A stretch of 21,249 nt of DNA from a virus. Below are positions 2,037 through 21,249 of the stretch, one piece after another (the stretch's first letter is position 1; each line of letters opens with the position of its first letter). A program made the position numbers and the translations under genes. The stretch covers positions 1 to 21,249 of the IMG/VR virus record IMGVR_UViG_3300017917_002242; one strand, given 5' to 3'. The notes below the pieces were generated by a model, which saw only the letters and a program-made list of their open reading frames with translations, searched no databases and was not told the origin of the DNA.

Positions 2037-2348
2037 ATGCCAAAAGGATTTCAAGTTGGAGATGAGAATGCAGGTAGACCTAAAGGTGCTCAAAATAAAG
2101 AAGCAAAAGCAATACGCGAAGCATTCGCTAAATTCATAGATGGTAAATTACCTGAAGTAGCAGATTGGCTTGAGGAAATCAGAGAAAATGACCCAGTTAA
2201 AGCATTTGAATTGATGCTTAAGATGTCTGAGTACGTTTTACCTAAACTTAAAGCAGTTGAAACTACATTCAATACTGAAGAAGGTATATCCAGCATTAAA
2301 ATTGAGGTTGTAAAGAATAACGATGCAATTAAATCTGAAAACGAGTGA
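2037..2348 (+). CDS. terS: Terminase small subunit
   Basis: This is the DNA-recognition subunit of the packaging motor, which selects phage DNA and stimulates the large subunit. The N-terminus carries GRPKGAQNK (13-21), an AT-hook-like basic stretch typical of small terminase subunits in Bacteroidota phages. Helices follow (KEAKAIREAFAKFIDG, KAFELMLKMSEYVLPKLK); the segment ending in Y-V-L-P-K-L-K is characteristic of this family as I remember it. The 103-aa length is normal. It overlaps the large subunit start by 26 nt, which suggests coupled translation and balanced subunits. The C-terminal tail is polar and probably binds the large subunit. Confidence 0.8.
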   Translation: MPKGFQVGDENAGRPKGAQNKEAKAIREAFAKFIDGKLPEVADWLEEIRENDPVKAFELMLKMSEYVLPKLKAVETTFNTEEGISSIKIEVVKNNDAIKSENE

Positions 2349-3501
2349 GTTATTTGCTAAAACGTATAACTCAAATAAACGCTTCATAGTACACCAAGGT
2401 GGTACTCGTAGCGGTAAAACATATTCAATTTTACAGTGTTTGATAATTAAGGGGCTTGAGGCAACTCAGCCTCTTACTATATCAATCTGTAGGCGTTCTA
2501 TGCCTTCACTTAAACTCTCAGCAATGAGAGATTTCATTAACATTTTAGATACAATGGGTCTGTATAAAGACTCAGATCATAATAAAACTGAAGGTACTTA
2601 CAAATTAGGTAAATGCACATTTGATTTCTTATCAATGGATGATGCAGCTAAGAAGAGAGGATCTAAACGTGACATTTTATATTTAAATGAAGCGAATGAA
2701 TTAAGTTATGAGGAACAATTCCAATTGGCTATCAGAACTGAAAAACAAGTTATTATTGACTATAACCCCTCAGATAACCAATCCTGGATTTATGATTTAT
2801 TAGAGGAAAGAGCAGATGAAATAGACTTTATCAAATCAACTTATAAAGATAATCCATTCCTGCCCCAAGAAACGATTCGTGAAATTGAAAATTTGAAGTA
2901 CACAGATGATGATTATTATCGCATCTATGCTTTGGGTGAGAGAGGATCAGGCAGAACGCTTATATTTCAATATCAGCAAATTAAAGGTATAGACTATCAC
3001 ACCACTCAATTTGTGGGGTTAGGAATGGATTTTGGTTACTCAAATGACCCAACTACAATAGTTGAAATCTGGAAAGGTGGAATTAATGATTTATATGTTA
3101 AAGAGTTATTGTATAAAACTAAATTAACTAACAACGACATCATAGGTGAATTGAAAAAACTAGATGTTGCACCTCATACTTTAATTGTTGCTGATTCAGC
3201 AGAACCAAAATCAATTGAAGAATTAAGGCGAGCAGGCTTCAACATTAAACCAACTAAAAAAGGTAAAGATAGTATCAATGTAGGTATTGACTATATTAGA
3301 AGACACAATTTGTTAGTTACAGAAGATAGTATTAACTTAATAAAAGAATTAAACAATTATAAGTGGAGAATGGATAGAGATGGTAACATGACAAATCAAC
3401 CTATTGATGCGTTTAACCATGCTATTGATGCTCTTCGTTATATTGGTACATACACACAATCAAAAACAGGAACAGGAAGATATTATGTCAAATTTGTCTA
3501 A
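2323..3501 (+). CDS. terL: Terminase large subunit (ATPase and nuclease)
   Basis: This is the motor that packages DNA into the procapsid and cuts the concatemer. Walker A is GGTRSGKT (26-33). Walker B lies in DILYLNEAN (117-125), with E123 as catalytic Glu. The coupling motif is IDYNPS (145-150). The RNase H-like nuclease supplies D236 in GMDFGYS, D291 in VADSAE, and D362 or D369 in the C-terminal DAFNHAIDALRY. The order and spacing are those of a full-length large terminase, and 392 aa is at the compact end of the family. The only usable start before Walker A is ATG 2323, inside the small-subunit gene. The 3' end overlaps the next gene by 17 nt. Confidence 0.95.
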   Translation: MQLNLKTSELFAKTYNSNKRFIVHQGGTRSGKTYSILQCLIIKGLEATQPLTISICRRSMPSLKLSAMRDFINILDTMGLYKDSDHNKTEGTYKLGKCTFDFLSMDDAAKKRGSKRDILYLNEANELSYEEQFQLAIRTEKQVIIDYNPSDNQSWIYDLLEERADEIDFIKSTYKDNPFLPQETIREIENLKYTDDDYYRIYALGERGSGRTLIFQYQQIKGIDYHTTQFVGLGMDFGYSNDPTTIVEIWKGGINDLYVKELLYKTKLTNNDIIGELKKLDVAPHTLIVADSAEPKSIEELRRAGFNIKPTKKGKDSINVGIDYIRRHNLLVTEDSINLIKELNNYKWRMDRDGNMTNQPIDAFNHAIDALRYIGTYTQSKTGTGRYYVKFV

Positions 3502-4171
3502 AACAGTAAAACACACTATTCCTACCAGATGGGAGGAAATTAAGTTATCATTGTATCTAAAGTATTACAATGCAATTAAGGATGCTAAACCTGAAGATGC
3601 AGGATATGAGGAATTAATCATTAAGGAGTTTGCTCATTATATTTGTTTAATTCATCGTGATTTATTTCCAGCACTTGAAATGTCAACTATTGATGAGATA
3701 GGTGAGAATATGAAACGAATGTTTAAGCAAACATCATCAATGCCTTTAGTTCAAACATTTACAATTGAAGGTACTGAATATGGTTTTCATCCTAATTTAC
3801 AAGAGTTAACTTATGGAGAGTATCTTGACTTAACTCACTATGGAGGTAAATTGTGGGAAGAAGATAACATATATAAATTCCTATCCATTTTATATCGCCC
3901 TATTATTCGCAAAAGTGGTCAAGAATATATCCTAGATGATTATTCAGGTACATCTCAAGTTAGAATAGATCTATTCAAATCACATATGACTTGTGATGTT
4001 GTTTGGGGTTCAGTTAGTTTTTTTTTGCTTTTACAACTCGCATTAGTGAACAGTACGAGTCTTTATTTGACGGAGCTGACGCAGGAAGCAGCACGAGAGT
4101 TGAGGCAAACTTTGCAAACAAATGGGGAACATATCAAACAATCTATACATTGGCTGGAGGCAGGCTTATAG
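3485..4171 (+). CDS. Tail assembly chaperone-like protein, short (zero-frame) product, 228 aa
   Basis: I chose ATG 3485 over the upstream in-frame ATG 3404 because GGAAGA lies just before it and the 27 extra residues merely overlay the terminase gene. The protein is mostly helical (WEEIKLSLYLKYYNAI, ICLIHRDLFPAL, FLSILYRPII), with a hydrophobic SVSFFLLLQLAL segment at the T9 run. Similar proteins with an LYRP motif and a late Phe-rich segment occur in Bacteroidota phages, as I recall; a chaperone role is inferred from the two-frame layout. After the T9 run the zero frame continues for 48 codons (ending IKQSIHWLEAGL) to TAA 4169-4171. The same DNA is also open in the -1 frame, so this gene may make two products sharing about 180 N-terminal residues. 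Confidence 0.75.
   Translation: MSNLSKTVKHTIPTRWEEIKLSLYLKYYNAIKDAKPEDAGYEELIIKEFAHYICLIHRDLFPALEMSTIDEIGENMKRMFKQTSSMPLVQTFTIEGTEYGFHPNLQELTYGEYLDLTHYGGKLWEEDNIYKFLSILYRPIIRKSGQEYILDDYSGTSQVRIDLFKSHMTCDVVWGSVSFFLLLQLALVNSTSLYLTELTQEAARELRQTLQTNGEHIKQSIHWLEAGL
4018..4026 (+). other. T9 slippery site for -1 frameshifting
   Basis: Nine consecutive T lie at the exact point where the -1 frame becomes open (its last stop is 4015-4017). Zero-frame codons across the run are TTT 4019-4021, TTT 4022-4024 and TTG 4025-4027. Both T TTT TTT (4018-4024) and T TTT TTG (4021-4027) fit the X XXY YYZ slippery pattern. A candidate stimulatory stem follows after 9 nt. A T9 run can also cause RNA polymerase slippage. 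Confidence 0.65.
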
Positions 4172-4293
4172 ATTTTGATGCTGTTACAAAATTACCTTTA
4201 CATAGCTGTCTTACTTTTCTAGCCTACTTACAAGACAGATCTCAAGTTGAACATATATTAACTAAGCAAACCCGAAATCAACTAAACAGATAG
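4018..4293 (+). CDS. -1 frame extension, joined to the 3485 gene by frameshift (product about 269 aa)
   Basis: This frame opens directly after TAG 4015-4017 and closes at TAG 4291-4293, giving about 90 open codons with no ATG or GTG; the only TTG is at 4150. It therefore needs ribosome or polymerase slippage at the T9 run to be made. Its product reads FAFTTRISEQYES, then FANKWGTYQTIYTLAGG, then FDAVTKLPLHSCLTFLAY, ending in charged residues. The K-W-G-x-Y, L-A-G-G, V-T-K-L and C-L-x-x-L pattern looks like a real family in Bacteroidota phages, as I remember it. A TTG 4150 start would drop the KWG part. Slippage near 4024 gives about 180 shared plus 89 new residues. A miscounted T in the run would instead make one plain gene. 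Confidence 0.7.
   Translation, partial: FFFAFTTRISEQYESLFDGADAGSSTRVEANFANKWGTYQTIYTLAGGRLIDFDAVTKLPLHSCLTFLAYLQDRSQVEHILTKQTRNQLNR
4036..4060 (+). promoter_or_regulatory. Candidate stem-loop downstream of the slippery run
   Basis: ACTCG (4036-4040) can pair with CGAGT (4056-4060) around a 15-base loop. The stem starts 9 nt after the T9 run, close to the spacing usual for frameshift stimulators. A second possible stem follows (GCTG near 4075, CAGC near 4088). Five base pairs alone are weak, and both strands of the stem are also constrained by coding in two frames. Confidence 0.35.
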
Positions 4294-20489: not shown

Positions 20490-20687
20490 ATGATAACTCA
20501 CCCAAATATAAGATTTGACCTTGTGTGGAAGCTGCTTAATGCAGCACCACACATTGCGCAACATCAGGTTATAGACACAGCAAAAGGAAAATACGAACTA
20601 GCTACTGATAAAAAATCAGCAGTTAAAAAGTTCAAGCGTAGTTTTAAAACCTTAACAGCAACAGTATGGCCAAAGAAATCCAAATAA
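20490..20687 (+). CDS. Small basic protein before the tape measure, 65 aa
   Basis: The ATG is one base after the previous stop, and the gene overlaps the tape measure start by 22 nt, suggesting coupled translation. The product is helical at first (FDLVWKLLNAAPHIAQHQVI) and basic at the end (KKSAVKKFKRSFKTL, ending WPKKSK). I recognise no family. The gene before a tape measure often encodes a tail assembly chaperone, but this one is much shorter than usual and shows no sign of a second frame. A role in tail assembly is possible but unproven. Confidence 0.6.
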   Translation: MITHPNIRFDLVWKLLNAAPHIAQHQVIDTAKGKYELATDKKSAVKKFKRSFKTLTATVWPKKSK

Positions 20688-21249
20688 AGATAGGCGTAGA
20701 TGATTCGCAACTGCAGAATGCTGCAGGTAGTGCGGATAATTTACGTAAACAATTAAGAGAGGCAAGTATTGAATTAGAAAATACAGTTGCCAAATTTGGC
20801 TTAACGTCTGAAGAGGCAGCCAAAGCAGCTCAAAAAGTAGGTGAATTAAGAGACACATTAGGTGATGCTCGTTCATTAGCTGCTGCATTTGATGCTGATA
20901 AAAGATTTGCTGCAGTTGGCCAAGCACTACAAGGTGTACTTGGTGGTTTTACTGCTGTACAAGGTGCATTAGCTGCATTTGGTGTTGAATCTGAAGATGT
21001 ACAAAAATCATTACTTAAAGTACAAGGTTTACTTGCATTTACTCAGGGTATAAACCAATTATTAGCAGCACAAGATGCATTCAAAAATCTAGGTGTAGTA
21101 ATTCAAACTACAACTGGTATTCAAAGATTATTTGCTACTACTACAGTAGCAACATCAACTGCTTTAAATGCGGTTGGTGTAAGTTCAACAGCAGCATCAG
21201 TAGGTGTAAGAGCGTTTTCAAGCGCCCTTATTGCAACTGGTATTGGTGC
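20666..21249 (+). CDS. Tape measure protein, N-terminal part (cut by window end)
   Basis: The frame is open from ATG 20666 to the window end (194 codons). The N-terminus begins MAKEIQIKIGVDDSQLQNA. A coiled-coil helix follows (LRKQLREASIELENTVAKFG), then FGLTSEEAAKAAQKVGELRDTLGDARSL (44-71), then the hydrophobic QGVLGGFTAVQGALAAFGVES segment and VQKSLLKVQGLLAFTQGI. This order is that of tape measure proteins in Bacteroidota phages. The protein sets tail length by lining the tail tube during assembly and leaves with the DNA. Tape measure proteins are often over 700 aa, so most of the gene lies beyond the window. It supports a long-tailed (siphophage-like) particle. Confidence 0.85.
   Translation, partial: MAKEIQIKIGVDDSQLQNAAGSADNLRKQLREASIELENTVAKFGLTSEEAAKAAQKVGELRDTLGDARSLAAAFDADKRFAAVGQALQGVLGGFTAVQGALAAFGVESEDVQKSLLKVQGLLAFTQGINQLLAAQDAFKNLGVVIQTTTGIQRLFATTTVATSTALNAVGVSSTAASVGVRAFSSALIATGIG

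Follow-up and report, generated by a model that had tools for sequence, protein, structure and literature searches.

The gene that directly follows the terminase in a 21.2-kb IMG/VR virus contig almost certainly gives rise to two forms of one protein through a programmed slip at a run of nine T (T9), as judged from the conservation of its sequence in relatives. The contig, which carries terminase, capsid, portal and tail genes, was analysed over its whole length of 21,249 nt, hereafter the window. The two predicted products have a common N-part, and the gene is probably a tail assembly chaperone of the lambda G/GT type.

A -1 reading frame opens at a T9 run after the terminase gene

The reading frames around the junction are the following.

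2323 to 3501, + strand: terminase large subunit (Terminase_3 PF04466, 2.4e-25; PHROG 2, 4.8e-40)
3485 to 4171, + strand: zero-frame ORF of 228 aa, with ATG at 3485 and stop at 4169-4171; a shared N-part of about 180 aa and a 48-codon tail after the run
4018 to 4026, + strand: T9 slip site, read in the zero frame as AGT TTT TTT TTG, with the in-phase heptamer T TTT TTT inside
4018 to 4293, + strand: -1 frame C-part of 91 codons plus stop, which the frame change is predicted to join to the N-part: KWGTYQTIYTLAGG...VTKLPLHSCLTFLAY
4027 to 4171, + strand: dual-coded overlap, with the -1 frame coding and the zero frame maintained without stops

The last 17 nt of the terminase gene are also the first 17 of the frameshift gene. 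The original prediction had placed the opening of the -1 frame at T9, with about 90 codons devoid of ATG and GTG, and its coordinates were confirmed: the -1 frame is closed by a TAG at 4015-4017, stays open from 4018 to 4290 and stops at 4291-4293, and the C-part holds no ATG or GTG and a single TTG at 4150. The zero frame continues, as had been stated, for 48 codons past the run to 4171, and the products would measure 228 aa and, for the predicted fusion, 180 + 89 = 269 aa. An X XXY YYZ heptamer had also been claimed at the junction, and T TTT TTT was found there in phase in every member. T9 is the sole run of T or A longer than 7 in the window. In five other genes of the window the longest open -1 stretch spans 21-42 codons, compared with 91 at T9; together with the three close contigs and the 143 representatives described below, this indicates that the open -1 stretch is more than chance.

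The T run and the two-frame arrangement are conserved in relatives

Profiles of the N-part and of the C-part were built and iterated over IMG/VR loci found through the terminase, the N-part or the C-part, giving a census of 256 loci that span the run with both parts, from which we took 143 representatives differing in at least about 10% of their nucleotides. The scans kept best matches, so that the 143 are those among the matches listed, and relatives further removed might have other sites; the census loci are also related to each other, and their counts are therefore not independent. Among the matches listed, every one of the 143 representatives had its C-part in the -1 frame, with T9 at the junction in 126 and T10 in 17. 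Outside the junctions, these loci (868 kb in total) contained 18 T8 runs, 6 T9 runs and none longer. Three close contigs, with about 15% protein divergence, kept T9 and both frames, and the isolated Nonlabens phages P12024S and P12024L had T9 in the same two-frame arrangement. Beyond these two phages, protein searches of the phage collection reached no relative. A genome scan with alignment A2 returned no match, and a narrower alignment led to four Bacteroidota MAG loci (Flavobacterium, two of Winogradskyella and a Bacteroidetes bacterium), all with T9 and a -1 C-part. Because these MAG loci are in Bacteroidota, the hosts are most likely Bacteroidota.

In 130 of the 143 representatives the -1 part had no ATG or GTG ahead of the run or in the 60 nt that follow the run's start, and in both parts substitutions were biased to the third position, the mark of purifying selection. 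At the level of sequence, the census shows that the -1 part codes for protein, lacks an independent start and invariably meets the N-part at 9-10 T. Since all 143 representatives keep T9 or T10, the slip almost certainly occurs on purpose. The search for homologues with the same slippery run, which the original prediction had called for, thus lends strong support from conservation to its programmed -1 event with two products sharing their N-part. It had also named two outcomes that would speak against it. A start proper to the -1 part was lacking in those 130 representatives, and T10 as a plain continuous gene was seen among the homologues in a single contig (L151, positions 551-560), which has one continuous ORF and is otherwise identical, over 400 nt around the run, to two T9 contigs (L153 and L154). 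This T10 is either a population variant or an assembly indel.

Two records of about 66-67 kb filed as plasmids of Lysinibacillus and Escherichia fergusonii (L038, CP045836.1; L039, NZ_CP040811.1) contain related phage DNA of Bacteroidota type in which small indels break the frames, and are probably contamination or misassigned phage. All the census exceptions (L151, L038 and L039) look like indels. A literature search found no paper on the T9-junction gene.

RNA polymerase and ribosome as possible agents of the frame change

The best explanation, to which we give about an even chance, is a G-like and GT-like chaperone pair made by RNA polymerase slippage at T9/T10. Most transcripts would carry U9 and direct synthesis of the 228-aa G-like short form, and in a minority of them the polymerase would add a U (U10), so that ordinary translation would yield the 269-aa GT-like fusion. 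By analogy with lambda, the short form would coat the tape measure protein and the C-part of the fusion would recruit the tail tube protein. In transcripts that had lost a U (U8), translation would pass into the +1 frame and end almost immediately; after the run this frame closed at 2.3 codons, compared with 5.0 expected, an early stop that may be forced by what the other two frames must encode, Phe-Arg in -1 and Leu in zero.

The same gene could also give the same two products if ribosomes shifted by -1 on U UUU UUU, the mechanism of lambda G/GT and P2 E, a reading that we take seriously and yet judge to be rather more probably wrong than right. Because T9 always holds U UUU UUU in phase, ribosomes could slip at every site; the direction is always -1, and the tail-chaperone recoding treated in a review of the subject is ribosomal (PMC5009743). 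An in-phase heptamer, however, requires 7 T in codon phase 2, 8 in phase 1 and 9 in phase 0, and among the matches listed the run fell in phase 2 in 35 representatives, in phase 1 in 100 and in phase 0 in 8 without ever being shorter than 9 T, although 7 or 8 would be enough in two of these phases. Nor was the site, among the matches listed, ever swapped for another heptamer such as A AAA AAG. The short stem proposed to lie 9 nt after the run did not hold up, being no better than shuffled sequence in the window (z = 0.25); RNA structure after the run had a z near 0 across 86 representatives, and Rfam returned no downstream stem or pseudoknot. The suggestion of ribosomal frameshifting helped by a stem thus found no structural signal. 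Slippage by RNA polymerase would account at least equally well for a run never below 9 T; in vivo, a stretch of 9 A or T makes the bacterial enzyme slip efficiently (PMC5009743). A T run that never falls short of 9 in any of the three phases, the closed +1 frame and the absence of structure signal together favour RNA polymerase slippage, which we consequently place somewhat ahead of ribosomal slippage.

The tree of the members implied about 10 phase changes. Also in favour of the polymerase, the third -1 codon was TTT in 35 of 35 phase-2 members versus 5 of 100 phase-1 members (Fisher 2e-27, uncorrected for kinship), and among independent tree pairs phase compensation went 4 to 0 in one direction (p = 0.125, the pairs being too few for significance). 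The Phe encoded by the second -1 codon after the run was TTT in 102 of 102 cases and the Arg that follows it was mostly AGG, though AGA is commoner elsewhere in the gene, which produces a conserved TTTAGG motif; at the location of this motif (4027 onwards) the window reads TTTACA. A Shine-Dalgarno-like stimulator upstream of the run was considered and rejected, as the conserved Gly before the run is encoded by GGT more often than by GGA.

The zero-frame tail of the short form

The zero frame remained open beyond the run for a mean of 51.1 codons, compared with 27.0 expected when the synonymous codons of the -1 frame were shuffled (sd 1.3; 0 of 200 shuffles as high). Run at two positions within the N-part, the same test gave 5.9 versus 6.6 and 5.7 versus 4.7. 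In the window taken by itself the difference was modest (47 versus 31 open codons, p = 0.04). Substitutions at the third position of the -1 frame amounted to 213 of 462 in the overlap versus 179 of 277 in the tail of the C-part (36 close pairs, p = 1e-6). Because the zero frame is kept open and the overlap is less bound to third-position substitutions, the tail of the short form seems to matter.

Protein family, gene position and probable role

The N-part matched PHROG 32199 in 78 of 84 relatives, and the C-part of some relatives matched PHROG 38404, both families of unassigned function. AlphaFold modelled residues 1-180 as a mixed helix-strand domain (pLDDT 93.6) whose structural relatives were uncharacterised tailed-phage proteins (31 at E < 0.001); compared with the PDB, this model had no match at E < 1 and hence none to a solved tail chaperone fold. 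The C-part model was helical and of low confidence (pLDDT 69.5), and the profile match of the C-part in the PDB was 6nyr (Crov588; E 2e-4), spanning 42 profile positions of a 681-residue chain. The sequence profile search matched no tail chaperone. A PHROG tail-protein family was matched by 5 of 84 N-parts and Phage_TAC_7 (PF10109) by 2 of 84, the better of them (L136) at 23.2 bits, under the curated cut-off of 25; the window protein gave no match to Phage_TAC_7.

The slot directly before the tape measure is the standard location of a tail chaperone. In one relative (L115) the frameshift gene stands between a gp10-like gene and the tape measure (PHROG 3336, 1.2e-13), directly upstream of the latter, and in another (L186) it lies within a tail/neck module. 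The terminase was directly upstream in 108 of the 143 representatives and the same neck/tail gene directly downstream in 122. The tape measure lay downstream on the same strand, about 4.6-6.5 kb away in the examined isolate and contigs and about 16 kb away in the window, where its candidate is the following.

20666 to 21249, + strand: tape-measure-like protein, start only (PHROG 21917, function unassigned, 1395 positions)

This ORF, which we infer to be tape-measure-like from the character of its sequence, begins about 16.4 kb downstream of the frameshift gene and runs off the end of the contig. No second chaperone candidate was found before it, the genes there being a 65-aa ORF and one for a 471-aa protein, without family matches. 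Synteny in L115 and the weak Phage_TAC_7 and tail-protein matches make the chaperone role likely. The proposed likeness to lambda gpG/gpGT finds support in these respects; in the window and in most relatives the gene is apart from the tape measure.

That the recoding is real and programmed and that the protein nevertheless has a packaging or neck task is unlikely. Such a task would suit the frequent terminase upstream, the shared neck/tail gene downstream and the lack of a confident family match, but L115 and L186 place the gene in the tail/neck module, in L115 immediately before the tape measure, and the G/GT-like two-product design and the weak matches also argue against it.

Other genes were noted in this region. 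An HNH-endonuclease-like gene separates the terminase from the frameshift gene in L031, L032 and L036, and in L112, L113 and L167 the frameshift gene is closely preceded by a DNA-methyltransferase-like gene. Upstream of the terminase, a sigma-70 region 2-like protein is encoded at 784-1344 in the window (Pfam 8.5e-5, just under cut-off) and likewise at 1466-1945 in L009, and a sigma-like gene is annotated at a comparable place in P12024S. Between the sigma-like gene and the terminase of the window, positions 1617-2030 encode a protein with a GIY-YIG-like stretch (YWIVYLLPQHNYVGMTNNPIRRMYNH), possibly a homing endonuclease.

Two separate genes or a sequence error

Two separate genes, with the -1 part started independently by re-initiation and no fusion made, are highly improbable. 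GenBank does list genes 38 and 39 in P12024S, and the C-part of P12024S/L is annotated as a 55-aa ORF from an internal ATG; however, just 13 of the 143 representatives have an ATG or GTG ahead of the run or in the 60 nt after the run's start, conserved residues lie right at the run, and the conservation of the T run would be left unexplained. A separate gene for the -1 part was rejected for this lack of starts. A sequencing or assembly error or a decayed gene has next to no probability: although the junction is a homopolymer, L151 shows T10 in otherwise identical sequence and the plasmid records have broken frames, the recurrence of the same junction in 256 loci, isolates and MAGs included, refutes sequencing error, and the third-position-biased substitutions of both parts argue against decay.

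Implications

The most far-reaching interpretation is a tentative one, to which we would give less than an even chance: a large lineage of Bacteroidota phages may make its two tail chaperones by polymerase slippage at T9/T10 instead of by ribosomal frameshifting, from a gene moved beside the terminase and with a dual-coded, functional tail on the short form. The analysis offers a probable function and two-product expression for a large phage family without assigned function (PHROGs 32199 and 38404), suggests that a tail-chaperone gene can sit away from the tape measure, and provides hundreds of natural variants in which to ask whether a phage chaperone ratio is set by polymerase slippage or by ribosomal frameshifting. 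Gene callers split or truncate the frameshift gene, an annotation that can now be corrected.

Comparison with known systems

As in gpG/gpGT of lambda and the long-tailed phages, a common N-part is extended in the predicted longer product through a -1 change near the end of the first ORF, and in L115 the gene is likewise directly before the tape measure. The present gene differs in being usually located after the terminase and well away from the tape measure, which in the window is 16 kb off, in having always T9 or T10 as its site, in its long and open overlap (about 50 codons) without stem signal, and in matching no solved chaperone by sequence or structure. Phage_TAC_7 (PF10109), the family of P2 gpE and Mu gp41, is approached by one member at 23.2 bits (cut-off 25); this match is however below the curated cut-off, the family is reached by 2 of 84 members only, and the window protein is without match. 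The slip site of P2 gpE is T-rich.

Genes 38-39 and 40-41 of the Nonlabens phages P12024S/L are homologous to the gene of the window and share T9, the -1 C-part and the position directly after the terminase, but they are annotated as two hypothetical proteins and the frameshift is unrecorded. Thermus dnaX and Shigella mxiE, two cases of transcriptional slippage, resemble it in the run of at least 9 A or T at the frame junction and in the two product lengths per gene, and differ in being bacterial genes. Literature searches turned up no phage tail chaperone with polymerase slippage. A homopolymer of at least 9 A or T kept by selection at a frame junction is one mark of transcriptional slippage genes, and the gene of the window and its relatives carry it.
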